Source: Clostridia bacterium
GTDB lineage: Bacteria; Bacillota; Clostridia; Christensenellales; Borkfalkiaceae
Length of the DNA: 64,000 bases
Direction of reading: 5' to 3'
Assembly: GCA_017536205.1 (NCBI GenBank)
Contig: JAFXHX010000003.1
Location: 1-64,000, forward strand
Made by a program: the position numbers and the translations under genes
Shown here: piece by piece, positions 369 through 55,899 of the stretch
Position numbering within the stretch: position 1 is the stretch's first letter
Layout: the number at the start of each line of letters is the position of its first letter
Notes under the pieces: model-generated
Told to the model about the DNA's origin: nothing
The model's database searches: none
The model's input: the letters and a program-made list of their open reading frames with translations, nothing else

Positions 369-854
369 TTAAAATCTTTTGTCGAGTGGAATATGTTTTA
401 CACTGATATCTTTGCCGTTAATTTTTATAAATGCAAAAGTTTTTGCCGTTCCGTATGAAGAAAGCGTTCCGGGATTTACTAGCGTAACGCCGTTTATCTC
501 GGTAGTTTTAGGTTGGTGAGTATGCCCATATAAAACAAGGCTTGCGTTAACCTTGTTAGCGTATTCATAAAGGCGTGAAAGCGAAAGTTTAACCCCGAAC
601 TCGTCGCCGTGAACGGCAAGCACGGTAACCCCTTCAACGGTAAAAAGCGCTTGTTTAGGGTAAAATTGAATAAAATCGCAGTTGCCCCTAACTATAACGG
701 CTTTATCTTGATAGTTAGAAAGAACTTCGCTTGCGTCGCTAACACCGTCGCCTAAAAACACTATTTTAGAAGATATTTCAAAGTCGCCCCGCAGGCGTTT
801 AACCCCATCTAAATTGCCGTGGCTATCTGAAAACACTGTTAAATAACTACTCAT
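369..854 (-). CDS. yfcE: YfcE/YsnB-type metallophosphoesterase
   Basis: Small (161 aa) calcineurin-like phosphodiesterase of the YfcE/MJ0936 family, predicted cytosolic and Mn2+-dependent; the physiological substrate in this family is not settled. All metal-binding blocks are visible: D10-x-H12, GD (35-36), GN (57-58), H82 and G-H-T-H (110-113). Length is typical. The ATG overlaps the end of the upstream MATE-RdgB gene by 8 nt and has no strong ribosome site of its own, so it is probably translated by coupling. An rdgB-yfcE pair is normal in Firmicutes (B. subtilis ysnA-ysnB), which supports both calls. Confidence 0.92.
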   Translation of the reverse strand: MSSYLTVFSDSHGNLDGVKRLRGDFEISSKIVFLGDGVSDASEVLSNYQDKAVIVRGNCDFIQFYPKQALFTVEGVTVLAVHGDEFGVKLSLSRLYEYANKVNASLVLYGHTHQPKTTEINGVTLVNPGTLSSYGTAKTFAFIKINGKDISVKHIPLDKRF

Positions 855-2781
855 TTTCGTTTAATTTTCCGTAAAGGTCGCAAAGCGCGCGATAACGGTG
901 GCTTACTTTGTTTTTATCTTCATCGCTTGCTTCGCCAAAGGTAACTTGCAAATCGTTAGATAGAAAAATACAATCGTAACCAAAGCCGTTTTCGCCACGT
1001 TCTTCGGTGGTTATAACGCCGTGAGTTTCGCCTATTCCCCAAACGTAACTGCCATCTGTTTTATAAAGCACTACCGCCGAAACAAACTTTGCGCTTCTAT
1101 CGTTTGCGTTTTCAATATTTTTAAGAAGTAAAGCACGATTTTCTTTGTCCCCGCCACCAGAATACCTTGCGCTATAAATGCCGGGCGCACCATTAAGTGC
1201 CGTGACCATAAGCCCGCTATCGTCTGCAAGCACGTTTTTATTAAGCGCAAGCGACACCGTTTTAGCCTTAATAAGCGCGTTTTCTAAAAAGGTAGTACCC
1301 GTTTCTTCAATGTCTTTATTAAAACCAAGTTCGCTCATAGGAACAACGATATATTTATCGCCGAAAATGGCTTTAATTTCTTTAATTTTACCTTTGTTTC
1401 CAGATGCAACTACAATTTGTTCCATACTGTTCTCCTTAAAATCTTTATTAGGAAGTTTTGAAATAAACACTATTAAAAAGGGGAGCGATACAAGCGAAGA
1501 CACAACGTCTGCAATAGGTTGCGATATTTGAACGGCAGTAACGCCACAGTAACTATGAAGTATAAGAATTGTTGGAATAAACGCAAGCCCCGAGCGTAAC
1601 ATTGCTAAAAAACTTGCCGTGAGCGCTTGGCGAGTGCTTTGAAAAAGCATATTTGAAACAACCGATATAGGCATAAATATAACGCCTATCGAAGCAACCC
1701 TAAGCGCAAGCGTTCCTATTTTAATAACTTCGCTACTTTCTTGGAAAAAACTTATAATTGCTTCGGGGAAAATAATTCCCGGTATAGATAAAACGCAAAC
1801 TATAATAGTTCCAAACAAAAGGGTGAACGAAACGCTCTTTTTAACTCTTAAAAACTTTTTGGCTTCGTAGTTAAACGAAGAAACGGGTTGAAAACCTTGC
1901 CCTATGCCCAGTCCAACGTACATTATAAGCCCTAAATACTTGTTTACTATGCCCATAGCGGCGTTGGCAGCGTCACCGTAAAGTTTTGCAAGGTTGTTAA
2001 GTATGCCACCTGAAATTGCAGTTAAGCCTTGGCGAATAAGCGAAGGAAGCCCAACCTTTATAATATTTAAATAAACTGCTACGCTATTTGAAATAAGCGT
2101 GTGGTTTACTTTGCTTTGCGAGTAACGAGAATATAAAACTATAAGCAATACAAAACTTATAAATTGCGAAACTGCCGTTGCAATACCCGCACCCAAAACG
2201 CCACAATTAAAAACTGAAACAAGCAAAAAGTCGCCCAAAATATTAAGTAATCCACCCGTTCCAAGCCCTATCATTGCATAGAACGCCTTGCTTTCGTAGC
2301 GTAAGCAGTTGTTAAGAACGAGCGAGCCTATCATAAACGGCGCAGTTATTAAAACGCAAACGCCGTACTCTTTAGCGTAGGGTAAAATAGTTTGGCTACT
2401 TCCTAAAACTTTCATAAGCGGTGTTAAGAAGATAAGCCCAAACACCGAAATAAAAAGCCCTAAAATCATTCCAACGTAAAACGCCGAAGAAACGTAAACC
2501 GAAGAAGTTTTTTGGTCTTTTTCGGCAAGATATTTTGCAACGAACACGCCCGAGCCGTGCCCAAACATAAACGCTATTGCTTGAATTATGCATTGAAGCG
2601 TAAATAAAACGCCTATTGCGCCTTGTGCGCTTTCACCAAGCGAGCCAACGAAATAAGTGTCGGCAAGGTTATATATGCTAGAAATTAGCATAGAAACGGT
2701 GGTGGGTATGCCAAGCGTTATAATAAGTTTAGAAACGGGCGTTTCCGTCATTTTTTTGTAATGCGTGTCTATGGCGTTCAT
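847..2781 (-). CDS. In-frame fusion: MATE-family transporter (N) + RdgB/HAM1 NTP pyrophosphatase (C)
   Basis: One 644-aa frame holds two complete proteins. Residues 1 to about 445 are a multi-helix MATE efflux transporter (MepA/DinF type, cation-driven drug or metabolite export). Residues 453-644 are a full-length RdgB/HAM1 pyrophosphatase, which hydrolyses dITP, XTP and ITP to clean the nucleotide pool; its SGNKGK substrate loop is at 460-465 and the Asp pair at 520-521. Residue 453 is a Met preceded by a good ribosome site, so RdgB may also be made separately. I see no stop or frameshift at the junction. The start at 2781 lacks a ribosome site and sits 6 nt from a -10 box; Met11 (2751) is an alternative. 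A lost stop codon or sequencing error could mimic a fusion. Confidence 0.85.
   Translation of the reverse strand: MNAIDTHYKKMTETPVSKLIITLGIPTTVSMLISSIYNLADTYFVGSLGESAQGAIGVLFTLQCIIQAIAFMFGHGSGVFVAKYLAEKDQKTSSVYVSSAFYVGMILGLFISVFGLIFLTPLMKVLGSSQTILPYAKEYGVCVLITAPFMIGSLVLNNCLRYESKAFYAMIGLGTGGLLNILGDFLLVSVFNCGVLGAGIATAVSQFISFVLLIVLYSRYSQSKVNHTLISNSVAVYLNIIKVGLPSLIRQGLTAISGGILNNLAKLYGDAANAAMGIVNKYLGLIMYVGLGIGQGFQPVSSFNYEAKKFLRVKKSVSFTLLFGTIIVCVLSIPGIIFPEAIISFFQESSEVIKIGTLALRVASIGVIFMPISVVSNMLFQSTRQALTASFLAMLRSGLAFIPTILILHSYCGVTAVQISQPIADVVSSLVSLPFLIVFISKLPNKDFKENSMEQIVVASGNKGKIKEIKAIFGDKYIVVPMSELGFNKDIEETGTTFLENALIKAKTVSLALNKNVLADDSGLMVTALNGAPGIYSARYSGGGDKENRALLLKNIENANDRSAKFVSAVVLYKTDGSYVWGIGETHGVITTEERGENGFGYDCIFLSNDLQVTFGEASDEDKNKVSHRYRALCDLYGKLNENE
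1423..1437 (-). promoter_or_regulatory. rdgB: Internal ribosome site and start codon of the RdgB half
   Basis: Within the fused frame, AAGGAGA (1437-1431), a 5-nt spacer and ATG (1425-1423) precede the natural RdgB N-terminus (M-E-Q-I-V-V-A-S-G-N-K). The spacing is ideal, so a free 192-aa RdgB can be initiated here. Confidence 0.75.
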
Positions 2782-12936: not shown

Positions 12937-14130
12937 TTAAATGTAATTATACGACGTAACTTTTATTTTAAACTCGGTGTTTTGAAAGACGTTTTCGCTT
13001 AATTTTTCGTACTCTTTATAGTGGTAGCGGTAAAGCATATTTTTAATGCCGAAAACGTCGGCGTTAACGCTTTTAACGTAACTAAAAAAGGTTTTAAGCG
13101 TTTCTTCAATATATTTACTTGCATCTTTTAGCGTTTTTTCGCTTAACTTTCCAAGCGTTGCAATTTCTTTCATACTTTCAGGAAAGTTACCGTCGTCAAC
13201 TTTAAGCCACACTTTTAGTTCGGCGTTAAGAACTGGCGTGCCGTTTTCTAGCGTTAAATTAACTTTGTTTTTAGATTTTCTAACGCTTATTAGCGCTAGC
13301 CCGTTTTCGTTAGATTTAGTAACGTTAAGCGAAAAATAGTCTTCGTTTGCGGGTTTATCAAGTAGGGAGAAGAAAAGGCACTCGTCGCCAGAAACTTTGC
13401 CAACCATATTTCCACCCGAAAATATAACTGCGCTAGTTGCATCGTAAACTACGGGGGTTGACTTGCCGTCGTCACCACCTTTACCCGATTGCGTTCCCAC
13501 CGACGACGCTTGCGACGTGTTATTGCCGTTATCTTCAGTTTCAATCATTTTAATAAGTGGCATATAGCCGTAAGACGCGTTTGAGTAATAGTTTTCTGAA
13601 AACTCTTTAACCGAAGTGGTTAAAATGGGGCTAGCGGTATTATAATCTCTAACGAATATTTTAGAAAGCGCAAAACTAGAAATGTTATCTAGTGGCGATA
13701 TAGAGTTTAAAACAGATTTAGCGCTTTCTTCACTAGCGCAAAGTATTGCCGAATCTTCTACCTTGTATGAGCGAATAAAAAAGTCTACCACGCTCATAAC
13801 GTTATCTTCAAAAACTGAACTTCCAAGTATTATAAGGTTGCAAAATGAAAGTTTTGGATACCAACCCGTTTCTTTGCCTATTCTATTAACGGCTTGGTAA
13901 AGCGTTTCGCCCTTTGCGTATATTACCGACTCGTTGCTTTTAGTTGACTGGTTGGTTGCTTCAGGCACGGCTATTTGAACGGTTACTTCGTAGCCCTCGT
14001 CAATTTTATCAACTCCAAGCGCAACTATAAGCGCAGTTTTTTCAACGTCTATAAGCAAAAAGTCTAGCGTTAAAAAGTTTATGAAAATTATTATAAAAAT
14101 TATAAAAAATATCTTTGCTCGTTTATACAT
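12937..14130 (-). CDS. gerAC: Ger(x)C family germinant receptor subunit C (non-lipidated variant)
   Basis: 397-aa C subunit of a GerA-type nutrient germinant receptor, acting at the outer face of the spore inner membrane. The N-terminal hydrophobic segment (about 7-30) is followed by the family block A-L-I-V-A-L-G-V-D-K near 33-42. In GerAC/GerBC proteins this block follows a lipobox Cys-Trp-Asp; here the aligned position reads D-F-L-L and no Cys occurs in the first ~100 residues, so lipidation seems lost and the helix is probably the anchor. A Gly/Ser/Asn-rich loop lies near residues 195-215. Ribosome site AGGGGG; abuts gerAB. Confidence 0.88.
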   Translation of the reverse strand: MYKRAKIFFIIFIIIFINFLTLDFLLIDVEKTALIVALGVDKIDEGYEVTVQIAVPEATNQSTKSNESVIYAKGETLYQAVNRIGKETGWYPKLSFCNLIILGSSVFEDNVMSVVDFFIRSYKVEDSAILCASEESAKSVLNSISPLDNISSFALSKIFVRDYNTASPILTTSVKEFSENYYSNASYGYMPLIKMIETEDNGNNTSQASSVGTQSGKGGDDGKSTPVVYDATSAVIFSGGNMVGKVSGDECLFFSLLDKPANEDYFSLNVTKSNENGLALISVRKSKNKVNLTLENGTPVLNAELKVWLKVDDGNFPESMKEIATLGKLSEKTLKDASKYIEETLKTFFSYVKSVNADVFGIKNMLYRYHYKEYEKLSENVFQNTEFKIKVTSYNYI

Positions 14131-15225
14131 TTAAGCCCCCTTTAACTGCCTTATAGGTCTAGTTTTAATTAAAGTTGCAATTAAAATTACAAGGGGAATT
14201 AAGTAGCATAAAACGCTATAAAAAACCCAAACGTAAGAAGTAAAAAACTCGGCTAGGGGGAATAGTTCGTTTTGGAAAAAATAACTTAATACACCTTGCG
14301 CTACGCATATAACAAGCGGAATAACAAACTGCTTTTTAAAGCTGAATATTTTAGTAAAACACAGCGATGAAATCATTAGCGGTAGGGTAAGCGAAAAAAC
14401 GCTTACAAGCGAAAAAAGTAGCGCTCCCATATAGTCAAGTCTTCCTATATTTGAAAGGGTTATTGAATATTTGCTCATTTTAAGTGGCGCAAAATACTGC
14501 CTTTCGGCAATAGTTCCAAACACTGCGTAAAAAACTACAATTAGTAGTACGGTCGTTACTGCGCTTGCCGTAAACGATATTGCCGTTTTTTTAAAAAGCC
14601 CTTTTTTGTTTTCAACAAACTCGTATAAAAACAGTAGAATAACTGGGTCGCCAAACCAAATTAAAGCGCTATGAGTTCCACTTAACAGTTTTTCACCCGT
14701 TGTGTAAAGTGGCAAAAGCCTTTGGTACTTTCCCGATGGAATTGAAAGCGAAAAAGTTATAATTAGTCCTAAAACAAACAGCCAAAAGGTAATTTCAACG
14801 CTCCTTGAAAATGAAGTGAAACCCTTTAAAATAATATAAAAAGCAACCAAATAAAAGGGCATAAAAGTAAGAAGAGTTGGTTGGCTTTCGTAAAAGGTTA
14901 GATTTATTGAGTTTTTTTGTTCAAGTATGGGAATTAACGCCTTTGAAAAAAAGTAAAGCCCGTAAATAAAATAAATAATGGTAGCCCCCACCTTTCCAAA
15001 TAGGGTGCAAAGTAGTTCGTAAAACCCCTTTGATTTCGAGCGTTTTATTATGGTTATTACAATAATTAAAAGCAAGAAGTCTATTATAAAGTTAAGTAGT
15101 ACTGCAAGTGGTGAACTTTCTGCCGAAGCCCCTGCAACTACTGCGGGCATTATATAAAACTTTGAAACCGAAAAGGTTACGAAAATTATAAAGCAAAGTT
15201 GTTTTAAACTAATTTTTTCAGTCAT
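14131..15225 (-). CDS. gerAB: GerAB/Spore_permease family germinant receptor subunit B
   Basis: 364-aa integral membrane protein with about ten hydrophobic helices, the normal layout of GerAB permease-like subunits (amino acid-polyamine transporter fold) that bind the nutrient germinant. The ribosome site AAGGAA lies inside the end of gerAA, and the frame overlaps gerAA by 8 nt, so the subunits are translationally coupled. The germinant cannot be predicted from sequence. Confidence 0.92.
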   Translation of the reverse strand: MTEKISLKQLCFIIFVTFSVSKFYIMPAVVAGASAESSPLAVLLNFIIDFLLLIIVITIIKRSKSKGFYELLCTLFGKVGATIIYFIYGLYFFSKALIPILEQKNSINLTFYESQPTLLTFMPFYLVAFYIILKGFTSFSRSVEITFWLFVLGLIITFSLSIPSGKYQRLLPLYTTGEKLLSGTHSALIWFGDPVILLFLYEFVENKKGLFKKTAISFTASAVTTVLLIVVFYAVFGTIAERQYFAPLKMSKYSITLSNIGRLDYMGALLFSLVSVFSLTLPLMISSLCFTKIFSFKKQFVIPLVICVAQGVLSYFFQNELFPLAEFFTSYVWVFYSVLCYLIPLVILIATLIKTRPIRQLKGA

Positions 15226-16654
15226 AAAAGCGTTTCCTTATTTTGTTATGGCTTTTTAAAAACTCGGGGCGCTTTGTCTGCTCGGCGTAAAAGTCCATAA
15301 TAATTCCGTCGCCAAGGTCGTTAAGATTAAGCGGTGCGTAAGGCGACAAGTAAGGCGCACCGAAAGAAGTGAAGTCGTTAAGGTAAGTTAATAGCCCTGC
15401 GCTTAATAAAATTATTCCGTAACCACCCATAAAACCTGCAACAGTTAAAAACATAAGCCTTAAAACGGAAAGCGTTTCGTTAAGGTCTGGAACGGCGTAA
15501 AAGCATATGCCAGATAGCGCAATTATCATAATAGTTGGCGTTGAAACCATACCTGCGTTAACTGCAGTTTCGCCAAGCACTAGCGCGCCAACAACGCTCA
15601 TTGCAATACCAACGTATCTGGGCATTCTAACGCTTGCCTCGTTAAGTATTTCAAATATTAAAAGGGTAACGAACATTTCAACGCTTGGCGATAACGGTAT
15701 TCCCTTAATACTTGAAACTATGGTTAATAAAAAGGAAAGGGGAATAAACTGCAAGTGAAACAGTTGTGCCGAAACGAAAAATGCGGGAAGAAGCACCGAT
15801 ATAATTACTGCAGTAACCCTTAAAACGCGCGAAAAGTTTGCCCTGTGCGTATTGATATAGTAGTCTTCACTGCTTTGAAAATCTTCTAGCATTATAAAGG
15901 GGGCAGTAAGGGCAATGGGCGAGCCGTCAACCAAAACGCCAACTCTACCTTCTAAAAGTTTCGCCACGAAAATGTCGGGCTTTTCGGTACTTCCAACTTG
16001 CTTAAACATTGAAGTTTTTCTGTTAGTTATGCACTTTATAACGTAAGAACTGTCTATTATTCCATCAACGTTTATTTTGCTTATTTTTTCTCGCAAGCCG
16101 TTAACAACGCTATCATTTGCAACGTTCGTTAAATACACAAGTTCAATTTGAGTTTGGCTTTGCTTTCCAACCGTTAACTTTTCAACCTTTAACTTTGGCG
16201 ATTTTAGCCTTTGCCTTACTAGACTTGTGTTAATTAAAATATTTTCTACAAACCCTTCTCTCGGCCCTTTTAAAACTGATGCGGTAGGTGGCTCGGCAAC
16301 TGCTCTAACAGAAGGCTTTTTAGTCGCAACCGTAAAGGCGCTACTAAATCCGTCTATTAAAATAACGGCGTCGCCTTCAACTATTTTTTTAGTGCAGTCT
16401 TTTATATAGTAAAGTTCCTTACACTCGGGTAGAGTTAGCGCTTTGGTTACGCTTTTAACGCTTGATAGGTTTTCAAGTAAATATAAAGGTTTAATAACTT
16501 GCTCGCCTAAAAGTTCTTTGTCGGTTAAACTTTCTAAATAAATAGCAAGTGCGCTTGTTCCGTTTACGTTAAACGAAAAGTAAATAACGTCTTGGCTATT
16601 TAACTCTTTATTCAAAAGCGATTTGTTGTTTTCAATATTTTTATCTAATTTCAT
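15218..16654 (-). CDS. gerAA: GerAA family germinant receptor subunit A
   Basis: 478-aa A subunit. The soluble N-terminal half (about 1-270) carries the family motif G-P-R-E-G-F-V-E-N near residue 132; the C-terminal part (about 275-440) has several membrane helices. First gene of gerAA-gerAB-gerAC. The upstream 34 bp hold a sigma-G-like promoter, consistent with forespore expression of ger operons. The ATG lies only 5 nt past the -10 element and has no ribosome site, so this mRNA too may be leaderless. There is no other Met in the first part of the frame. Confidence 0.93.
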   Translation of the reverse strand: MKLDKNIENNKSLLNKELNSQDVIYFSFNVNGTSALAIYLESLTDKELLGEQVIKPLYLLENLSSVKSVTKALTLPECKELYYIKDCTKKIVEGDAVILIDGFSSAFTVATKKPSVRAVAEPPTASVLKGPREGFVENILINTSLVRQRLKSPKLKVEKLTVGKQSQTQIELVYLTNVANDSVVNGLREKISKINVDGIIDSSYVIKCITNRKTSMFKQVGSTEKPDIFVAKLLEGRVGVLVDGSPIALTAPFIMLEDFQSSEDYYINTHRANFSRVLRVTAVIISVLLPAFFVSAQLFHLQFIPLSFLLTIVSSIKGIPLSPSVEMFVTLLIFEILNEASVRMPRYVGIAMSVVGALVLGETAVNAGMVSTPTIMIIALSGICFYAVPDLNETLSVLRLMFLTVAGFMGGYGIILLSAGLLTYLNDFTSFGAPYLSPYAPLNLNDLGDGIIMDFYAEQTKRPEFLKSHNKIRKRFYD

Positions 16655-17422: not shown

Positions 17423-19684
17423 TTATGACACCTTTTTAAATATTCTAACGCAAATAACGGTCATATCGTCTTTAGGCGTTCCGTTAGATAGTGAAAGCGC
17501 CTTTTTGCAAACGTCGTCTGCAAGAGTTTGGGGGTTGCGAGTTTTAAGCCCCTTTAAAAAGGATATAAAGTCGGTTGACGAGCCGAACGCATCGTGAACG
17601 CCGTCGCTTATAAGCATAACGGTGCTTCCTTCTTCGAGCGAAAGCGAAACGCCCGTAGGCTTTAATTCGTCTAGTATTCCAAGTGGAAGTGAGTTTCCTT
17701 CAACTATTTTTATAGTGTCTTTTGTTAAAACGTAACTGTGTGGCGAGCCTATTTTAATAAAGTCGGCAGTAAGCGTAAAAAGGTTAAAGGTCATAACGTC
17801 AACGGCAGAAAAACTATCTTCCGTGCCAAGCGATAAAACCTTGTTAACCATATTTATAACTAGGTTGCCGTTAAGCCCCGCTTTGTAAAACGATTCAATT
17901 AGCGATATTGCAGTTTTAGAAGTGTTATACGCTAAACTGCCACTTCCCATACCGTCAGATAGCGCAACCAAAAAACGCGCGTTGTCAATCTTTATAAGCG
18001 AGTGCGTGTCGCCACTTTTTTCCGAGCCGTATTTTGCCGTGCTAGAAAGCCCGAACGATGCGTCTACGCAAGGCGCAGGTTTAAGCGTTATTGCCGTGTG
18101 AGTAAGCGATAAATGAGTTTTAGAAGTAATGCTCATAAAGGCGTTAACCGCCTCGGAAGTTACTTTTATAAGTTTTTGATAGTCAATTTCGCTTTCGTCA
18201 ACCACAAGGTTAATCTCAACGCCGTCGTCACTAGAAAACGCCATAATTTCAATAAACGGAACGCCATAAAGCAAAAGTTTTTCGGTAACTAATTTTTCAA
18301 TTCCGTCTTCAAAAGAAAGCGTTTTAGAATAGTCTAGCGCAATGCTTTTAAGCACGCTTGCAACGCCACCTGATTGCATTAAAATAAGTTCTTTTCCACT
18401 TGAAAGTTCGGTACTTTTTTTAACTTTTTCACGGTACTTTGTTATAAGCGAATTCATTTCAAATATTATAGAGTTTACAAAACCGCAAGAGGAGGCAAAC
18501 TTTTTAGTAAGGTCCATAAGCGTAACTCTGTTTTTAGAAACGCCAACTGAAAGTATTTTGACTATTTCTTCTTTGTCGGGCGCGCCTTGGTTTTTGCACC
18601 TTAAATACCCTGGGCAACTTTCGCAAACGTTAGCAACTATTTCATCTGCCATTTTTATGTAAATCTCGTCGGCAACCGATTTAGTTTGTTTAAGTTCGTT
18701 TAAACAGTCTTTCATTTCTAAAAACACGTTAGAAACGTCGAACAACTTTCCGGCAAGCGTTCCACGCAGTCTGTTAACGGCGTATTTAGTAAGAACTCGC
18801 CCTTTAAGCGAACGCGCCATTTTCACAAGCGAAGTTATAGCGCTTTCGGGAATAAACAAATAAATTAAAACGGGGACTGAAGAAAATATGGCGTCGGTGT
18901 AGTGAAAAGCCCCGTAAGCCTTTAAAAAGTAAGCGCAAAACAGGTCTGCAATAACGGCAAAAAACCCCGCAAGCAGTCTAGATTTTTTCATTACGGCAGA
19001 CGGCAATAAAAAAGTTATTGAAAAGGTTGCAAAATACGTTAGCGTTAGGCTTTTAATTGAAGGCGCAAGCGCTAAAACCACTGCTAAAACGCAAGAAGAA
19101 TTAGCCCCGAAAACTTCCATAGCAATTAAAATTAAAAATATTGAAACGCTTCTATACGCATCGTAGCCGAAAAGCGATATAAAGCCAAGCGATAAGCAAG
19201 TTATAAACACTGAAAGGCACACTTTTTCACCGTCGTCGCTTTTAAAACTTAATTTTTTAACGTATAAAACCCTAACGGCAGATATAAAAACGGGCGTAAA
19301 AAGCGAGCATATAGCGCCTTGAATTAAAAGGTAAACTATTTCCGTTTTAGGAATAAAAATAAATGGTAAGCACGCCAAAACCGAAGCGATTATAACTTTA
19401 CCGCCAACCCTCGTTTGCTTTTTTCTTAAAATCATAAAAAACGGAAGGGTAACTAGTATTGAGATTAAAGCGCAAATAAGAAGTGTTGGGTTAAACTTTA
19501 CTAAAAACCCAAGCGCAAATATAATTGCGCTTGAAACGGGGTTTACTTTTAGGTATAAAAGCGCAATAAAAAAGGGTAGCGATAAAAAGCAAACTCCGTC
19601 AAGCGTATAGCAAAGTAAAATTGAAAAACCTGCTGAAAGTAAAAAGCCTAAAACGCTAGAATAAGTTAGTTTATTTTTAGCCAT
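17423..19684 (-). CDS. spoIIE: SpoIIE, stage II sporulation protein E (PP2C phosphatase)
   Basis: 753-aa membrane phosphatase that dephosphorylates SpoIIAA and thereby activates sigma-F in the forespore; it also associates with FtsZ at the polar septum. The N-terminal third (to about residue 300) is multi-helix membrane; a central region (about 310-540) follows; the C-terminal PP2C domain has L-S-D-G-M-G-S-G near 574-581 and I-S-D-G near 698-701. It is shorter than the B. subtilis protein (~827 aa), mostly in the central region. The ribosome site AAAGGTGG lies 7 nt before the ATG and inside a strong leader hairpin. Confidence 0.95.
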   Translation of the reverse strand: MAKNKLTYSSVLGFLLSAGFSILLCYTLDGVCFLSLPFFIALLYLKVNPVSSAIIFALGFLVKFNPTLLICALISILVTLPFFMILRKKQTRVGGKVIIASVLACLPFIFIPKTEIVYLLIQGAICSLFTPVFISAVRVLYVKKLSFKSDDGEKVCLSVFITCLSLGFISLFGYDAYRSVSIFLILIAMEVFGANSSCVLAVVLALAPSIKSLTLTYFATFSITFLLPSAVMKKSRLLAGFFAVIADLFCAYFLKAYGAFHYTDAIFSSVPVLIYLFIPESAITSLVKMARSLKGRVLTKYAVNRLRGTLAGKLFDVSNVFLEMKDCLNELKQTKSVADEIYIKMADEIVANVCESCPGYLRCKNQGAPDKEEIVKILSVGVSKNRVTLMDLTKKFASSCGFVNSIIFEMNSLITKYREKVKKSTELSSGKELILMQSGGVASVLKSIALDYSKTLSFEDGIEKLVTEKLLLYGVPFIEIMAFSSDDGVEINLVVDESEIDYQKLIKVTSEAVNAFMSITSKTHLSLTHTAITLKPAPCVDASFGLSSTAKYGSEKSGDTHSLIKIDNARFLVALSDGMGSGSLAYNTSKTAISLIESFYKAGLNGNLVINMVNKVLSLGTEDSFSAVDVMTFNLFTLTADFIKIGSPHSYVLTKDTIKIVEGNSLPLGILDELKPTGVSLSLEEGSTVMLISDGVHDAFGSSTDFISFLKGLKTRNPQTLADDVCKKALSLSNGTPKDDMTVICVRIFKKVS

Positions 19685-39109: not shown

Positions 39110-39350
39110 AAAGCAATTGCTCCTTTTTCCCAAAAATCTTTTTATTCTAAAAATATTTTCGGGAGCCCTATTATTTTGCTTGCTACGGCTTGAACGGGGA
39201 GGGTTTAAAATATGTGTTGTTATAACAAAAAATCTTTCCTTACTTTCCTTATATATAACGCGTGGGCGCGCGTGTTATGCACTATTTTGACTATTTTTCA
39301 TAATATGTATTAAGCCGATTTGACAAAAAACACTCCTAAACGACAATTTC
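39110..39350. other. Gene-free stretch upstream of spo0A
   Basis: No open frame of useful length on either strand. It contains an AGCAATTGCT palindrome (39112-39121), TTGTTATAACAA near 39217, and an imperfect TAAC...GTTA inverted repeat around a GC-rich core near 39257-39277. On the minus strand a weak promoter-like TTGTCA lies near 39321-39326. It may encode a small RNA ending at the 39069 hairpin; otherwise I see nothing in it. Confidence 0.3.
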
Positions 39351-39413
39351 GTACAAAAATATTTGACTATTTGATTAAAAATCGTTTATTTTGTACAAAA
39401 ATAGTGATATAAT
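39351..39413 (+). promoter_or_regulatory. spo0A promoter region with direct repeat
   Basis: A TATAAT box lies at 39408-39413 without a good -35, and TTGACT at 39363-39368 could serve another start. The motif GTACAAAAATA occurs twice (near 39351-39361 and 39392-39402), about 41 bp apart; the second overlaps a TTTTGTACAAAA palindrome. They may be activator or repressor sites. Confidence 0.35.
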
Positions 39414-39441: not shown

Positions 39442-40194
39442 ATGGAAGAACAGAAAGTTGTTGTTTTGCAAGAAAACCAAAGTGCCGTTGATTTTGTAGT
39501 TAACGCTATAAGTGAAATGAGTGGATTTACAGTTGTTGGAAGTTCGTGTGACGGAGAAGAAGGGCTTAACCTTATTGAAAAGTTCGAGCCTGATTTTTTA
39601 ATTACGGGCATAGTTTTAAAAAGTATTGACGGGTTTACCGTTTTAGAGCGTTTACAAAAAAGTAAAGCAAAAGCGGTTGTGGTTAGTTCTTTTACTAGCG
39701 AGCCTATAATTAGCCGTGCGCTTTCATCGGGCGCAGTATACTACATAGCAAAGCCGTTTAAAAGCGAAGTTTTAAAAAGTAGGCTTTTAGAACTTTGTTT
39801 AGGTGAAAAAGAGCCCACCGAAAAAGTTTCGTTTGAAATGCGCAAAAATAGTCTTGATGAAAAGATTAGCAAGATTTTTATATCGGTTGGTATTCCACCG
39901 CATATAAAGGGTTATTACTATCTTCGCGAAGGCGTTAAAATGGCGGTAGAGCATCCCGAAATAATAAACAACATAACAAAAAAACTCTACCCTAAAATAG
40001 GCGAAAAGTTTGAAACTTCGGCATCGAAAGTCGAACGTGCAATTCGCCACGCCATTGAAGTTGCTTGGAATAGGGGAAGAATAGAAACCATAAACAATTT
40101 ACTTGGTATTCGCGCTTACGTTGGTGGTGAAAAGCCTACAAACGGGGAATTCATTGCGTTAATTGCCGATAAAATGCTACTTGAAGGTGCTTAA
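39442..40194 (+). CDS. spo0A: Spo0A homologue with degenerate receiver (phospho-Asp lost)
   Basis: 250-aa master regulator of sporulation entry. The C-terminal DNA-binding domain (about 143-250) is highly conserved: H-I-K-G-Y-x-Y-L-R-E and the recognition helix S-K-V-E-R-A-I-R-H-A-I-E-V-A-W. The receiver (1-120) aligns end to end with B. subtilis Spo0A without gaps to residue 64, but Asp56 is Gly, the Asp10-Asp11 metal pair is Gln-Glu, and Met-Pro after the Asp is Leu-Lys. Lys in A-K-P-F and Ser at the Thr switch are kept. Phosphorelay control therefore looks lost or altered. Ribosome site AAGGGAG sets the start at 39442. Confidence 0.93.
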   Translation: MEEQKVVVLQENQSAVDFVVNAISEMSGFTVVGSSCDGEEGLNLIEKFEPDFLITGIVLKSIDGFTVLERLQKSKAKAVVVSSFTSEPIISRALSSGAVYYIAKPFKSEVLKSRLLELCLGEKEPTEKVSFEMRKNSLDEKISKIFISVGIPPHIKGYYYLREGVKMAVEHPEIINNITKKLYPKIGEKFETSASKVERAIRHAIEVAWNRGRIETINNLLGIRAYVGGEKPTNGEFIALIADKMLLEGA

Positions 40195-40228: not shown

Positions 40229-40256
40229 TTTACAAATCTCAATACAGTGATACAAT
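40229..40256 (+). promoter_or_regulatory. Promoter of the zinc-ribbon gene
   Basis: TTTACA, 16-bp spacer, TACAAT, with TG one base upstream of the -10, about 55 bp before the ATG at 40311. Confidence 0.5.
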
Positions 40257-40310
40257 AGGTAAGAGTTACTTGCTACGTTGTTTACTAAATCGGCTGATAA
40301 GGAGTTTTGT

Positions 40311-40808
40311 ATGCCAAAATACGTATTATGTCCAAGATGTGAACTTAATTATATTATCGAAGGGGAAGACTACTGCGCGGTTTGTAAAGCCGAACTTAAA
40401 ATAGGCCCGCAACTTATGTTTTCTTCAGAGGGCGAAGTAAAAGAACAAATACTTTGCCCCGTTTGCAAGAAAAACTATATAGACGAAGAAGAAGATATGT
40501 GCAGTGCTTGCCGTGAAGAATACGAATTCGAAAGAAGCGCCGAAGAAGACGACGGTGACGAGTGGCGCAAATATCTTGACGACGACGAGAAAGAAGTTAT
40601 TGCATCGCAAGACGATGAAGATATGGCTTCGCTTTCAGAAATTGCCGAGCAAGAAGCATTTGAAGACGATTATGAAGATGACGACGAGATTGACCCCTAC
40701 ACCAACGAAAAGGTGGTTAAGCACGACGACGACTTCGATTACGTTACCGTTTCAGACGACGACTTTTTAGACGACGAAGAAGACGACGAAGAAGATGAAG
40801 AAGTTTAA
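40311..40808 (+). CDS. Double zinc-ribbon protein with acidic tail
   Basis: 165-aa cytosolic protein. Two zinc knuckles: C7-x2-C10 with C22-x2-C25, and C49-x2-C52 with C64-x2-C67. The rest (about 75-165) is extremely acidic, rich in Asp/Glu, and probably disordered. I recognise no named family. Start set at the ATG after AAGGAG. It lies between spo0A and veg with its own promoter. An acidic tail could mimic nucleic acid or bind basic proteins; that is speculation. Confidence 0.75.
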   Translation: MPKYVLCPRCELNYIIEGEDYCAVCKAELKIGPQLMFSSEGEVKEQILCPVCKKNYIDEEEDMCSACREEYEFERSAEEDDGDEWRKYLDDDEKEVIASQDDEDMASLSEIAEQEAFEDDYEDDDEIDPYTNEKVVKHDDDFDYVTVSDDDFLDDEEDDEEDEEV

Positions 40809-41153: not shown

Positions 41154-42635
41154 ATGCCTATTAACGCAGAAAAAAAGCAGTTTTATAAAACGTGTGAAAT
41201 AAAAATAACTTCAAAAAACGAAGTTAGCACCAAACTTGAACTTACCGAAGAAGAAGCAACGTCGGTTATTATAGAAAACGCAATTCCGTTTTTAGAAATA
41301 GAAGAATGTGGAACTAGCGAAGTAAGGTACGGTGGTAAAGTTTATTTTACCGTAGTTACGGGGCTAAACGGTGTTAAAAAGACGGAAGCGGGCGTTGAGT
41401 TTATGTATAAAGAACAAGCCCAAAAGGTAAACGCAGGCGACCTTGTTATAGGTGACGCTACAGTAGATAACGTTAAAGTTACCGTTAAAAACGGAATTGT
41501 AACTGCAAGTGCCGTTTTAATTTACACGGCAACCGTTTACCAAAAGCAGGAAGAAAGTTACCTTTATTCGCTTGAAGGCGCTAACGTTAAAAAAGCAGAA
41601 GTTAATTCACTTTTGTTTCCTACAAAATATAAATCGAACTTCACGGTTGAAAACGAGTTTGAAGTTCCCTTCGTTATAGCCGACGTTTTATATCACGAAG
41701 AACGTGTAAAATTAACGTCAGTTTCGGCGGGAATAGGTTCGGTTATTATAGAAGGCGAAGTTGAACTTTCAATGCTTATAAAAACCCACGAAGGCGGGTT
41801 AGTTCGCCACGTTAAATGCTTGCCTATGCGCTACGAAGGCGATGCAAGCGACGTTTTGCCCTCGTCTATTATAAGCGTTTGCGCTTGCGTTAAAGGCGCT
41901 AACTTATCGGTTACTTCTTACGAGCAAACTTCAAAAAGTACCGTTTCGGCGTTTGTAAACGTTGGTTTTTCGGGGCTTATTTACGAAGTGGAACAGTTAA
42001 GGTTTATAAGCGACGCCTACTCTATCAAAAACGAACTTATTCTAGATAAAAAAGAGTATAAAACCACCGAAATTACGGGGGTAAAATGCACGGCAGTTAA
42101 AGCAGAAACGCAGGGAAGTTTAAAAATTAAAGAAAACGCTGGACTTATATGCCCGTTATTTGTTAAAATAGAAAGTGTAGAAACGAGCGAAACGCCAAGC
42201 GGGCTTAACTTAAACGGCGTTGCAAGCGCCACGGTTATAATAAGTAACGAAGGCGTGTTTGAAACGGTTAAAGTTCCCGTTAACTACTCTACTCGTTTAG
42301 AAGAAAGTTGTTTAGTTAAAAACGTAACGCCTTGCAACCTAGAAGCAAGCGTTTCTGGCGGTAAAATAAGCGTTACTTTCGACCTTAACTTAACGCTCGT
42401 TTCAACCGAAAATAAAGCAACTTATGCCTTATTTGAAGTTCAAGAAGGTGAAGAGCGCCCCGTAAACGACAGTGCAATTAGCATTTGCGTTCCTAAAGAA
42501 AGCGACACGCTTTGGGATTTATGCAAGTCGCTTGGCGCTTTAGAAGAAGAAGTTTTAAAACTAAACCCCGAACTTAATTTCCCGTTAACGGGCGATGAAA
42601 GGGTTGTTATTTACAGAGAGATAAACAAGGAATAA
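41154..42635 (+). CDS. sipL: SipL-like spore coat anchoring protein (DUF3794 + LysM)
   Basis: 493-aa mother-cell protein. Several beta-rich DUF3794/SPOCS repeats fill residues ~1-430. The C-terminal LysM domain (about 446-490) shows D-T-L-W-D-L-C and L-N-P. In C. difficile SipL binds SpoIVA through its LysM domain to anchor the coat around the forespore; the domain order here is the same. Expression by sigma-E is supported by its promoter. Downstream ispE and spoIIR match the clostridial gene order. Ribosome site GGGGGAGAG. Confidence 0.88.
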   Translation: MPINAEKKQFYKTCEIKITSKNEVSTKLELTEEEATSVIIENAIPFLEIEECGTSEVRYGGKVYFTVVTGLNGVKKTEAGVEFMYKEQAQKVNAGDLVIGDATVDNVKVTVKNGIVTASAVLIYTATVYQKQEESYLYSLEGANVKKAEVNSLLFPTKYKSNFTVENEFEVPFVIADVLYHEERVKLTSVSAGIGSVIIEGEVELSMLIKTHEGGLVRHVKCLPMRYEGDASDVLPSSIISVCACVKGANLSVTSYEQTSKSTVSAFVNVGFSGLIYEVEQLRFISDAYSIKNELILDKKEYKTTEITGVKCTAVKAETQGSLKIKENAGLICPLFVKIESVETSETPSGLNLNGVASATVIISNEGVFETVKVPVNYSTRLEESCLVKNVTPCNLEASVSGGKISVTFDLNLTLVSTENKATYALFEVQEGEERPVNDSAISICVPKESDTLWDLCKSLGALEEEVLKLNPELNFPLTGDERVVIYREINKE

Positions 42636-43617: not shown

Positions 43618-44151
43618 ATGAAAAAACTTGGAATAACTTTACTTATAATTGCCATAATAACGATAACGGCAGTTGCTTCAAATCAAGGTACCGCTAGCGA
43701 AAAGTATCTTCGCATACACATCCGCGCCAACTCAAATAGCCTAACCGACCAAAGCGTAAAGTACGAAATTAAAGACCAAATAATATCGCACCTAACACCG
43801 TTTATTATAGAGTGTAAAAGTAAAAGCGACGTTATTAGCGTTTTAAACGAAAAAACCACGGAAATAAACGGAATAATAAATAACGTGCTTAGAAAAAACG
43901 GCTTTACCTACACGGGCAAAATGGTGGTAAGAAACGAGTTGTTTCCTACAAGGGTTTACGGAGACTTTACGCTCGAAGAAGGTTTTTACGACGCCGTTAT
44001 AGTCGAATTAGGTAAAGCCGAGGGGGATAACTGGTGGTGCGTTATGTATCCCCCTTTATGCTTTGCCGAAGCCGAAAACTTAACTTATAAGTCGAAAATC
44101 GCCGAGTTAATACAAGAGTTTAAACAAAAATACATAAAGGAGAAAGTATGA
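43618..44151 (+). CDS. spoIIR: SpoIIR, stage II sporulation protein R
   Basis: 177-aa forespore-secreted signalling protein that triggers SpoIIGA to process pro-sigma-E in the mother cell. N-terminal signal segment (about 4-22), then the family block L-R-I-H-I-R-A-N-S-N-S near 31-41 and Y-P-P-L-C near 146. Normal domain, C-terminus short. The ribosome site lies in the ispE terminator stem. Its stop overlaps the sleB-type gene start (ATGA). Confidence 0.93.
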   Translation: MKKLGITLLIIAIITITAVASNQGTASEKYLRIHIRANSNSLTDQSVKYEIKDQIISHLTPFIIECKSKSDVISVLNEKTTEINGIINNVLRKNGFTYTGKMVVRNELFPTRVYGDFTLEEGFYDAVIVELGKAEGDNWWCVMYPPLCFAEAENLTYKSKIAELIQEFKQKYIKEKV

Positions 44152-44855
44152 ATAAAAAGGTTAAAAGAACGTTTGTAATTATTATGCTTATAATTTCGGT
44201 TACGTCTATGTCGGCGCTAACCGTAAGCGTGTATAATCCCGTGGTTGAAGTTGCCGTGGTTAGTCAAAGTTCTAATTCTGCCGATATTAAACTCGTTCAA
44301 AAAAAACTTAAAAACTGGGGTTACTATAAAGGCTCGGTTGACGGAATATTCGGCAGTCAAACACGCTCTGCAGTTAGGCTTTTTCAAAGGCGAAACGGCT
44401 TGACGGTTGATGGAATTGTAGGAAACAAAACGCTTTCTGCACTTGGAATAACTAGCAGTATGCTATCTTCAGGAACTTCGTCTTCGGGGGCGAGTGGCTA
44501 TTCTTCAAGCGACGTTAACTTGCTTGCTAAACTCATTTACGCAGAAGCGCGTGGCGAGCCTTATCAAGGTCAGGTTGCAGTTGGCGCAGTAGTTTTAAAC
44601 AGAGTTAAAAGTTCGTCGTTCCCAAACACTATATCAGGTGTAATTTATCAGCCTTACGCCTTTACTTGCGTTAACGATGGGCAAATAAACTTATCACCAA
44701 ACAGCACGGCTTTAAAGGCGGCGAAAGACGCAATGAACGGTTGGGACCCGACTTCGGGTTGTATTTATTATTACAACCCCAAAATTGCAACGAGCAAGTG
44801 GATATATTCGCGCCCCGTTGTAACAACCATAGGCAACCACGTTTTTGCATTATAA
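44148..44855 (+). CDS. sleB: Spore cortex-lytic enzyme, SleB type
   Basis: 235-aa exported hydrolase that degrades muramic-lactam-containing spore cortex on germination. N-terminal signal segment (about 8-28), peptidoglycan-binding domain (about 44-102, V-D-G-I-F-G-S-Q-T and V-D-G-I-V-G), Ser/Gly linker, and a Hydrolase_2 catalytic domain (about 125-235) with A-E-A-R-G-E, where the first Glu is the likely acid. Followed 9 nt later by ypeB, its usual partner. Confidence 0.93.
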   Translation: MNKKVKRTFVIIMLIISVTSMSALTVSVYNPVVEVAVVSQSSNSADIKLVQKKLKNWGYYKGSVDGIFGSQTRSAVRLFQRRNGLTVDGIVGNKTLSALGITSSMLSSGTSSSGASGYSSSDVNLLAKLIYAEARGEPYQGQVAVGAVVLNRVKSSSFPNTISGVIYQPYAFTCVNDGQINLSPNSTALKAAKDAMNGWDPTSGCIYYYNPKIATSKWIYSRPVVTTIGNHVFAL

Positions 44856-44864
44856 GGAGCGAGT

Positions 44865-46310
44865 ATGGAAGAATATAAAAACAGTGCAATAAATAAAACC
44901 GAAAGTATAGTAAACGGCGAAAAGCGCCGTGAAAACAACGCCGAAAACAAAAGGAATAACAGTCGTTTAAGAAGTGAGTTTAATAAAAAGCGTTGGCTTG
45001 TTTTTGCCGTCGTGTTTTTAAGTGCGGGTGTTATGATATTATCTGCTATGCTCGCAGTAAAAACTTTTTCGCCTGCAGGTGAATATTTAACGGGCGCAAG
45101 CGAGCAACAAAGTTTTTACGACCTTGTTTCTTATTCAAACGGAATGGAAGTAAACCTTTCTAAAATTATAGTTACTAAAGATAGCGAAAAACGCCAAAAA
45201 CTGTTAGGCGAACTTCGAGTTCAGTCAAGTTTAGGTGCAGAGAGTTTATCTCGCCTTTCCGTTAAAGAAGAAGATAAGTACTACACCACCAAGTTTATAA
45301 ACCAAGTTAACGACTTTTCTAAGTATTTATGCGAAAAGTTAATAGACGGTGAAACCCTTTCTAGCGACGATTTAAAAACGCTTAAAGATATGCACTCGGT
45401 AAGCAGACAACTTGCTAAAAACCTTCAAACTTTAACAAGCGAAATGGGTTTTGATTACAACTTTAATTCGCTGTTAAAAGGCGACGAAAGCGATAAGATA
45501 ATATCGGCTTTTAAAGACCTTGAAAGTAGCGCAAGCGAGTACCCGCATATGATATACGACGGGGCTTTTGCAGACGGTACCGAGGGCAAGGTTGCAAAGT
45601 ATTTATCTAGCAAAGCCGAAATTAGTAAAGAAAAAGCCCAAACGGTTTTTGAAGAGTATTTTTCGGGCTATAACTTAAAGGGCGTTGAACTAAAAGGTGA
45701 AACTACGGGCGTTGTTATTGAAACTTATAACTTTGAAGCCGAAGACGATAAAGGCGTTATGCTTTCTGGGCAAATTAGTAAAAAAGGTGGCGAACTTGTC
45801 GAGTTTACCTACTTTGAAGATTGCAACGCTCAAACCATAACCGTTGCCGAGTGTGAAGAAATTGCCGACGCCTTTTTAGATAAGTGTGGCTACTTAGGCG
45901 TTAAAGCGGTGTGGACTTCGGTTGGTGGAAATATTATAACTATAAACTATGCGTCTGTGGAAAACGGAATTATATGCTATCCCGACCTTATTAAAGTAAA
46001 CGTTTGCCGTGAAAGGGGAAAGGTGGTTGCGCTTGAAGCAAGTTCGTATATTTATAACCACGAAAAAAGAACTTTTCCAAAGCAATTAGTAACGCTACTT
46101 GAAGCAAAAGAAAAGGTAAGCGATGAAATAAGCGTTGAAAGTTCACGCCTTGCAATTATTCCAAAAGGCGAGTCAAGCGAACTTCTTGCCTACGAGTTTT
46201 ACGGAAAAAGCGGTGATGACGTTTACTATATTTATATAAACGCTCAAACGGGCAAAGAAGTTGATATTTTTAAAGTAATAGAAAACAGTGAAGGAAAACT
46301 TCTAATGTAA
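44865..46310 (+). CDS. ypeB: YpeB germination protein
   Basis: 481-aa membrane-anchored protein needed to localise and stabilise SleB in the spore. A polar N-terminus of ~43 residues precedes one membrane helix (about 44-66); the rest is exposed, with C-terminal PepSY-like domains (about 260-480). Longer than its average only in the polar N-terminus. Last gene of spoIIR-sleB-ypeB, all needed in or delivered from the forespore. Confidence 0.92.
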   Translation: MEEYKNSAINKTESIVNGEKRRENNAENKRNNSRLRSEFNKKRWLVFAVVFLSAGVMILSAMLAVKTFSPAGEYLTGASEQQSFYDLVSYSNGMEVNLSKIIVTKDSEKRQKLLGELRVQSSLGAESLSRLSVKEEDKYYTTKFINQVNDFSKYLCEKLIDGETLSSDDLKTLKDMHSVSRQLAKNLQTLTSEMGFDYNFNSLLKGDESDKIISAFKDLESSASEYPHMIYDGAFADGTEGKVAKYLSSKAEISKEKAQTVFEEYFSGYNLKGVELKGETTGVVIETYNFEAEDDKGVMLSGQISKKGGELVEFTYFEDCNAQTITVAECEEIADAFLDKCGYLGVKAVWTSVGGNIITINYASVENGIICYPDLIKVNVCRERGKVVALEASSYIYNHEKRTFPKQLVTLLEAKEKVSDEISVESSRLAIIPKGESSELLAYEFYGKSGDDVYYIYINAQTGKEVDIFKVIENSEGKLLM

Positions 46311-54088: not shown

Positions 54089-55054
54089 ATGAACGGCTTT
54101 TCGCTACTTAAAAATACAAACGCCTATAAGGTTTTTTCGCTAGACGTTAGTAGGGGTACGGCATCGCACGCCTATTTAATCGTTTGTGAAGACGAGTTAA
54201 ACCTTGAAAACTACTTAAAGGCGTTTGCAAAAAGGCTTTTGTGTAGCGAGAGCGAGCCGTGTGGCGTTTGCAGAAACTGCACGCTAATAGAATCAAAAAC
54301 TCATACCGACGTTGTTTTTTACCCAACGGGTAAAAAAATATTAGTTGCCGACGTTGACGATTTAGTTAAAAAATCGGCGTATAAACCACTTGAATGCGAT
54401 AAAAAAGTTTTTATTTTAAACGGCGTTTCTAATATGCTCCCACAAGCGCAAAACAAACTTCTAAAAACGCTTGAAGAGCCACCTAAAAACACCTATTTAC
54501 TTCTTGGCGCAACTTCAACTTACACCGTTTTATCAACCGTGTTATCGCGCTGTAAAAGGCTAGATATTCCATCATTTAAAGAAGAAGATATAGTAAAAGC
54601 GCTTGAAGGCGAGTGTTTAGATAGGCAAAAACTTTTATCGGCGGTAAGGTTGTCGGGTGGAAAACTCGGCGAAGCAAGAGAGCGCTATGAAAGCGGTGCG
54701 GGCGCACTTGCAGAAGAACTTGCAATAAAAACGTTTATCGAAGTAACTTCTAGTAGAGACGTTGCACGTTTTTCAGGTAAAGTTACGAAAGAACTTTTAA
54801 AAGATTACATATCGTCGCTTGCAAGGCTAACGGGGCTTGCATTAAGGCTTCAAGACCACTTTGAAAGTGGTGACGGTGCATTTTACGAAACGGCTTTAAA
54901 CCTTTCTAAAACGCTTAATAAGGGTGCGCTAATACACGCGTCAGACGCCGTTAGAAAAGCCGAGAAAGACGTTTACTTTAATGCTACTGCTACCGCCGTT
55001 GTAGACGGGGTTGTGTTTAGCATTTTGGAGGGAAAACATAAATGGTTAAAATAG
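54089..55054 (+). CDS. holB: DNA polymerase III delta-prime subunit
   Basis: 321-aa clamp-loader subunit. Zinc-binding C-x-x-C-x-x-C near 66-72, the AAA+ fold with degenerate Walker A as normal for delta-prime, and the S-R-C arginine-finger motif near 163-165. It overlaps ricT by 13 nt. Confidence 0.93.
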   Translation: MNGFSLLKNTNAYKVFSLDVSRGTASHAYLIVCEDELNLENYLKAFAKRLLCSESEPCGVCRNCTLIESKTHTDVVFYPTGKKILVADVDDLVKKSAYKPLECDKKVFILNGVSNMLPQAQNKLLKTLEEPPKNTYLLLGATSTYTVLSTVLSRCKRLDIPSFKEEDIVKALEGECLDRQKLLSAVRLSGGKLGEARERYESGAGALAEELAIKTFIEVTSSRDVARFSGKVTKELLKDYISSLARLTGLALRLQDHFESGDGAFYETALNLSKTLNKGALIHASDAVRKAEKDVYFNATATAVVDGVVFSILEGKHKWLK

Positions 55055-55899
55055 TAGGAGTAAAGTTTTTAAACTCCTGTAAAGTATATTACTTCGACCC
55101 GCAAGGCGAAGAGTATAGTTTTGGCGAAGGCGTTATAGTCGATACCGCAAGGGGTACCGAATACGGCGTTGTTCAGGTTGCAACTAAAGAAGTGAGCGAA
55201 AGCGAAATAGTTCAACCGTTAAAACCCGTAACCCGTCGCGCAACTCAAAAAGAAATAGAAAAAATCAAAGAAAACGAGAAAAAAGTGCCTTGGGTTATTG
55301 AAACTTCTAAAAAAGAAGTTGAAAAACTCGGGCTTAATATGAAAATTACTGGCGCAGAGTACGTTTTCGACGGCTCGAAGATTTTAATTTATTTTACTGC
55401 GCCTGAAAGGGTAGACTTTCGCGACCTTATAAAAGCGTTAGTTCCCATACTTCACCACAGAATAGAACTTCACCAAATAGGCTCGCGCGACGAAACCAAA
55501 CTTCTTGGTGGTATTGCTCCGTGTGGTAGGGTATGTTGCTGTAAAAGTTTTTTACCCGACTTTAAAACGGTTACTATAAAAATGGCAAAAAACCAAGGCT
55601 TATCGCTTAATCCAAGCAAAATAAGCGGGCTTTGCGGAAGGCTTATGTGTTGTTTAGAATACGAAAACGAGCCGTACGCCGAAGCGTATAAAAAAATGCC
55701 TAAACTAGGCAGTGAAGTTATTACGCCAGACGGTAAGGCAACCGTTATAGGCAACAATATGCTTAAAATGCTGGTTAAAACCAAAATGTCGCTTAAAGAC
55801 GGAACTTTATCGTATAACGAATATCCGTTAGAAGCCGTTAAGTTTACCAAAAAGGGCGAACAACCCAAAGACGATGACGGTGAAGACGATAAAAATTAA
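55042..55899 (+). CDS. ricT: RicT (YaaT), PSP1-domain regulator
   Basis: 285-aa protein of the PSP1/RicT family. The Cys set C-G-R-V-C-C-C near 155-161 and C-G-R-L-M-C-C near 196-202 bind iron-sulfur clusters in the RicAFT complex, which in B. subtilis tunes RNase Y and the Spo0A phosphorelay. The ricA and ricF genes are not in this window. C-terminal tail is acidic. Conserved position after holB. Confidence 0.93.
   Translation: MVKIVGVKFLNSCKVYYFDPQGEEYSFGEGVIVDTARGTEYGVVQVATKEVSESEIVQPLKPVTRRATQKEIEKIKENEKKVPWVIETSKKEVEKLGLNMKITGAEYVFDGSKILIYFTAPERVDFRDLIKALVPILHHRIELHQIGSRDETKLLGGIAPCGRVCCCKSFLPDFKTVTIKMAKNQGLSLNPSKISGLCGRLMCCLEYENEPYAEAYKKMPKLGSEVITPDGKATVIGNNMLKMLVKTKMSLKDGTLSYNEYPLEAVKFTKKGEQPKDDDGEDDKN

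Follow-up and report, generated by a model that had tools for sequence, protein, structure and literature searches.

A predicted pseudo-receiver form of Spo0A shared by most members of an uncultured gut Clostridia family

The spo0A locus and the sporulation genes around it

The stretch of DNA analyzed here (the window, 64,000 nucleotides) belongs to a Clostridia genome of 1.39 Mb, assembled in 14 contigs and 93.6% complete. It carries a spo0A gene on its forward strand (39442-40194), encoding a protein of 250 amino acids in which Pfam profiles detect a Response_reg receiver domain (PF00072, residues 7-115, 59 bits) and a Spo0A_C domain (residues 142-244, 129 bits). This architecture, together with the score obtained for the NCBIfam profile TIGR02875 (spore_0_A; 228.8 bits, for a cut-off of 200), is that of a Spo0A orthologue. 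The DNA-binding domain (residues 138-248, 39853-40185, forward strand) is 53-55% identical to solved Spo0A structures, matches the Spo0A DNA-binding domains 1lq1 and 1fc3, and includes the helix SKVERAIRHAIEVAWNRG. The original prediction, made from the letters of the DNA alone, had named a true Spo0A DNA-binding domain, which these profiles and the helix bear out. A search for the second Spo0A that it had suggested looking for found none, the only Spo0A_C match in this 93.6% complete genome being spo0A itself.

The receiver domain (residues 1-118, 39442-39795, forward strand) combines an intact fold with a degenerate active site. Residues are numbered according to Bacillus subtilis Spo0A, using a sequence whose receiver agrees with the PDB chain. 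The alignment of the two proteins is ungapped up to residue 64; from there to residue 86, the window protein has four residues fewer. Codon 56 is GGC (39607-39609, forward strand), which places a Gly where the phosphorylated Asp56 is expected; codons 10-11 (39469-39474, forward strand) encode Gln-Glu in place of Asp10-Asp11, and M59-P60 is replaced by L-K, all of which had been read correctly from the start. Lys108 is retained (K104 in the window protein), and the position of Thr86 is occupied by a Ser (S82), two features absent from the original prediction. The protein, therefore, lacks the phosphorylatable Asp56 and its Asp10/Asp11 acidic pocket, and displays the features of a pseudo-receiver (PsR/ALR): loss of Asp56 and of the Asp10 position, a conserved Lys108, a Thr86 to Ser change, and an intact fold. 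In the AlphaFold2 model, the receiver is complete, with five strands, five helices, and block pLDDT values mostly of 87-98; the linker is floppy, and the DNA-binding domain has the Spo0A fold. Foldseek matches the model to 1qmp, 1fc3, and 1lq1, with a TM of about 0.9 of target between the receiver model and the Spo0A receiver 1qmp. The sequence strongly supports the view that this Spo0A could not be switched by phosphorylation at Asp56.

Several other sporulation genes, most of them announced by the original prediction, were confirmed by profile matches in the window. These are spoIIE (17423-19684, reverse strand), which encodes SpoIIE_N and phosphatase domains (PF07228, PF19732); the spore germinant receptor genes gerA, gerB, and gerC (12937-16654, reverse strand; PF03323, PF03845, PF05504); and spoIIR, sleB, and ypeB (43618-46310, forward strand; TIGR02837, PF09551, TIGR02869, PF14620), with GerB, GerC, and YpeB being additions to the original list. 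For spoIIR, the TIGR02837 score of 140 bits is below the NCBIfam cut-off of 152, and PF09551 is above its own. The ORF at 41154-42635 has no Pfam or NCBIfam match, and its name, SipL, is solely that given by the original prediction. Another contig of the genome carries spoIIAA-spoIIAB, a sporulation-type sigma factor gene, and a spoVA-like gene, as read from the sequence. A single ORF on the reverse strand of the window (847-2781) fuses a MATE transporter domain with a Ham1/RdgB-like pyrophosphatase domain.

Variation at residue 56 and selection on Spo0A

In the genus to which the window belongs, Spo0A is present in all nine genomes and Asp56 in none (Gly in seven, Ser in one, Trp in one). Since the change recurs in these independent assemblies, a sequencing error at codon 56 is ruled out. 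At the family level, 220 of the 251 genomes have a Spo0A_C match and 31 do not. Asp56 is absent from 71 of the 89 full-length family Spo0As that were read (89 species, 15 genera), the choice of loci having been guided by high match scores and by genus, and thus not random. Eleven of these genera are wholly devoid of Asp56, one is mixed (Asn/Asp), and three keep Asp. The replacing residues are Gly, Ser, Asn, Glu, and Trp, with Ser in 24 of the 71. The loss of Asp56, initially treated as a trait of one organism, is thus real but extends to most of a family.

In the other families of the order, Asp56 is found in 56 of 62 sampled Spo0As. The exceptions have Glu or Cys (f10) or Glu (f19, f28), or else a badly degenerate receiver (f24); in the latter, locus L211 (genome G298), as also L176 and L248, encodes Spo0A-like receivers that are degenerate far beyond residue 56. 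Judging from named public genomes, the clade belongs with Candidatus Gallimonas and other uncultured Clostridia of the gut, Gallimonas being placed by NCBI in Clostridia incertae sedis; we take the clade to be, probably, the GTDB family Borkfalkiaceae, in the order Christensenellales.

When the active-site columns were left out, a tree of 117 Spo0As grouped the family and a few named relatives in a single clade (SH-aLRT 99). The letter at residue 56 changed at least 30 times over this tree, and a larger tree (226 rows) requires at least five changes between presence and absence of Asp56 within the family, and 13 overall. The entropy of position 56 is 1.94 bits in the Asp-less members versus 0 in Asp-type Spo0As, while D63, G64, G101, and P109 are invariant, and position 108 is Lys or Arg. 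As site 56 varies and D63-G64, G101, and P109 do not, the site is free and the domain constrained. Within the genus, dN/dS is lowest in the DNA-binding domain (about 0.05), followed by the receiver (about 0.21) and the linker (0.83), these values being rough, with synonymous sites near saturation. The receiver is thus under purifying selection, and the DNA-binding domain strongly so. As far as its sequence and those of its relatives allow it to be classified, the window Spo0A is a clade-wide pseudo-receiver, a trait of most of a family.

Other proteins with a Spo0A_C domain were observed in the course of this comparison. Several family genomes encode a second protein (L199-L204, 260-300 amino acids) with a receiver and a divergent Spo0A_C domain, mostly with Glu-Asp and Asp56 but lacking the Lys-Pro motif that follows the receiver lysine. 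Many genomes of the order also carry another Spo0A_C gene, whose product of 85-139 amino acids consists of a divergent Spo0A_C domain alone (L010, L011, L264, L265, and others); none was found in the window's genome. Within the genus, the extra Spo0A_C matches are short ORFs without a receiver.

Kinases, phosphorelay, and the spo0A promoter

Seven HATPase_c proteins are encoded in the window's genome (93.6% complete). Two are histidine kinases, each adjoining an OmpR-type regulator, and the five others were identified from sequence as two GyrB/ParE-type proteins, MutL, HtpG, and SpoIIAB, so that no orphan histidine kinase is found among them. The three receiver domains of this genome belong to Spo0A and to the two OmpR-type regulators, whose active sites are intact, and none is a stand-alone receiver fit to be Spo0F. 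The orphan kinases and the Spo0F of a phosphorelay-driven Spo0A pathway are, therefore, missing from this 93.6% complete genome. Every one of the 17 kinases in six genus genomes adjoins a regulator, and one family member with Glu56 (G029) has no recognizable histidine kinase. Since Asp56 is lost and the genome has no spare kinase, entry into sporulation would have to be governed otherwise than by Asp56 phosphorylation. The original claim that sporulation does not start by phosphorylation of this residue is strongly supported by the missing acceptor, the missing orphan kinase and Spo0F, and the variation of residue 56 in a constrained receiver. RicT (YaaT), a subunit of a complex formerly connected with the Spo0A phosphorelay of B. 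subtilis, is encoded in the window (55042-55899), though no phosphorelay was found.

The relation between kinases and Asp56 is not a simple one. Four genomes of family f28 (G473, G463, G338, and G277, with Spo0A loci L140, L250, L253, and L258), of roughly 0.9-1.1 Mb and 98-100% complete, have no recognizable histidine kinase, and Spo0A is their only receiver-domain protein. Asp56 is retained in three of them and replaced by Glu in G277. Because these Asp56 species lack a recognizable kinase, the loss of kinases and the loss of Asp are not tied one to one. A family member of 2.0 Mb, G018 (f1 g11, Spo0A at L190), has Asn56, yet its HATPase_c matches number 53 and its response-regulator matches 58, counts far above those of its relatives. 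Kinase loss as the sole cause of Asp56 loss was, therefore, rejected as a simple rule, as the f28 genomes without a recognizable histidine kinase mostly keep Asp56 and G018 combines Asn56 with about 50 kinase-type matches.

The sequences upstream of spo0A were searched for the Spo0A box (TGTCGAA). The most enriched 8-mer is the canonical TTCGACAA, in the family and in other families alike: it occurs upstream of 36 of 86 family loci, versus 1.3 expected, and the canonical box occurs at 22 of 61 loci of other families, versus 0.55 expected. This shared enrichment indicates that self-recognition is conserved, whatever residue 56. The conserved recognition helix and the enriched boxes would be in keeping with binding of the family's Spo0As to such boxes, but the spo0A promoter of the window has only a weak box. 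This box-like element, CGACAA (39341-39346), marks the upstream end of an array and is followed by the array site TTTCGTACAAAAAT (39347-39360) and, 42 bp from it, by the array site TTTTGTACAAAAAT (39389-39402), located between the expected -35 and -10 elements. The sequence TGATATAAT (39405-39413; all four elements on the forward strand) corresponds to the extended -10 of the probable spo0A promoter; it was not picked by a two-hexamer promoter scan. Genome-wide, the array site is found at three places with at most one mismatch, two of them being upstream of spo0A. Upstream of spoIIE and spoIIA, the window's genome has only weak Spo0A-box lookalikes.

In the family, the array sites have the form ATTTTGTACAAAAAT; of their seven core positions, two are not those of a Spo0A box. 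They are spaced at 10.5-bp multiples, and pairs of ATTTTGTACAAAAAT-like sites that are in phase occur at 48 of 60 loci, in all ten testable Asp56-less genera, versus 1.9 expected from shuffles. Elsewhere, such pairs occur at 9 of 16 loci in the mixed genus, at 1 of 10 in the family's Asp-keeping genera, and at 9 of 61 in other families. The array sites also share their helical register with the canonical boxes (R 0.72, n = 52). The raw contrast between the array and Asp56 loss is strong (48/60 versus 9/61 loci). Nevertheless, a gain of the array accompanying the loss of Asp56 finds no support in phylogenetically independent pairs (7 in number, with a median p of 1), and this scenario was abandoned; the link between the two is suggestive, as a co-occurrence at family level only. 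Since the array and the loss of Asp56 do not go together in these pairs, the array may be a family trait unrelated to this loss, and its sites, with their two core differences, may be bound by a regulator other than Spo0A.

The gene directly downstream of spo0A in the window (40278-40808), preceded by a promoter-like sequence of its own (40229-40256), encodes a double zinc-ribbon protein whose tail is acidic; its place next to spo0A is conserved here and in several Asp-keeping lineages.

Proposed control of sporulation without the acceptor and its significance

Control by the concentration of Spo0A, through autoregulation at the array, is the most likely mode, with a ligand or a partner protein as its main rival. 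The proposal that a Spo0A orthologue became a pseudo-receiver across most of the family, with sporulation set by Spo0A concentration, has in our estimate an even chance of being right. The receiver would be kept folded, probably as a dimerization or inhibitory module fixed in a state competent for DNA binding. Upstream of its own promoter, Spo0A would bind the Spo0A box together with the phased series of weaker, box-like sites, yielding a cooperative and thresholded autoregulatory loop, of presumed sign, and would then switch on spoIIE, spoIIA, and similar genes. This supposes that unphosphorylated Spo0A is active and that the organism sporulates. In B. subtilis, full-length Spo0A is largely inactive when unphosphorylated, which counts against such a model. 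The broader reading, in which the whole family exchanged a phosphorylation switch at the entry into sporulation for one based on concentration, the sporulation kinases being lost and the phased array supplying the threshold, is put forward more tentatively. Abundance, a ligand, or a partner had all been named in the original prediction; the choice between them is still one of inference, and the enriched boxes and the phased array favor abundance with autoregulation.

A ligand or a partner could, instead, bind the former phosphorylation face of a pseudo-receiver that otherwise holds the DNA-binding domain off, as for JadR1 or regulators of the BldM/WhiI type. Purifying selection on the receiver, its full fold, and a new consensus around its active site (Leu9, Leu59, Lys or Ser60, Arg118) indicate that this domain still does something specific, and direct ligand regulation of pseudo-receivers is documented (PMC12632262). 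Against this stands the neighborhood of spo0A: no gene was found to adjoin it in Asp-less species only, the zinc-ribbon gene being also present in several Asp-keeping lineages, and some family members have a different neighborhood altogether. This alternative is, thus, possible but somewhat doubtful.

Sporulation may also have been lost, or be on its way out, with Spo0A decaying or serving another role. A classifier in PMC12536801 labels as non-sporulating 18 of the 19 Christensenellales genomes from one host set, among them Borkfalkiaceae; the genomes of the family are small (1.0-2.7 Mb), and the 31 family genomes without a Spo0A_C match point the same way. Conversely, PMC11536998 regards Borkfalkiaceae as potentially sporulating, and, where a family is divergent, a classifier that learned from canonical gene sets may err. 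The sporulation and germination genes of the window and of the other contig, the strong purifying selection on the DNA-binding domain, and the conserved Spo0A boxes make such a loss unlikely. Phosphorylation elsewhere on the protein, or by another enzyme such as a Ser/Thr kinase with the receiver or the DNA-binding domain as its target, is possible in principle: Ser/Thr phosphorylation is known for the Asp-less RitR (PMC4395418), and Ser is common at position 56. Nevertheless, Gly, Asn, and Trp cannot accept a phosphate there, and the most conserved positions of the receiver include no newly invariant Ser or Thr, so that this route is highly improbable. An assembly or binning artefact, or a canonical Spo0A missed in the 93.6% complete genome, is barely conceivable, since all nine genus genomes and 71 of the 89 family species agree and the genus's additional Spo0A_C matches lack a receiver; for the genus, it is refuted.

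Compared with known systems, the window protein shares with Spo0A (TIGR02875) its domain order, its recognition helix, and Spo0A boxes upstream of its own gene, but differs by the lost Asp56, the replaced Asp10-Asp11, and a genome in which no orphan kinase or phosphorelay was found. The ALR regulators RitR, ChxR, HP1043, and FrzS also keep the receiver fold, lose phosphorylation residues, and must be activated independently of phosphate; unlike the window Spo0A, none of them carries its DNA-binding domain. BldM and WhiI (Streptomyces) and FruA (Myxococcus) are likewise atypical regulators that run a developmental, spore-forming program without normal Asp phosphorylation. Nevertheless, their output domains are unrelated, the kind of spore is different, and the change concerns individual regulators, whereas here it affects the endospore master regulator across most of a family. 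The sad alleles of B. subtilis offer a laboratory precedent, in which an altered receiver also frees Spo0A from phosphorylation. Sad67, however, is an engineered internal deletion, while the whole receivers of the family evolved naturally.

Aspartate-less receivers are a recognized class (PMC4395418, PMC12632262). As far as they were consulted, these works on pseudo-receivers do not describe an Asp-less Spo0A, and the text of the review PMC12632262 names neither sporulation nor Bacillus. A study of the evolution of the Spo0 pathway makes no mention of Asp56 or D56. No report of an Asp-less Spo0A was found in the open-access literature, although an earlier mention elsewhere is possible. Asp-less receivers are, therefore, known, and what appears to be unreported is a putative pseudo-receiver Spo0A.

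To our knowledge, Asp56 phosphorylation of Spo0A has been treated as a universal gate to endospore formation. A sizeable and common group of bacteria from animal guts that keeps Spo0A and sporulation genes without the acceptor indicates that this gate is not universal, and, where the family was examined in detail, the lost acceptor is mostly accompanied by the absence of orphan kinases. Tools inferring sporulation or its control from canonical parts may misjudge the species of this family. With more than 70 species, it constitutes a natural set for studying how a response regulator turns phosphate independent, and what sets its threshold.
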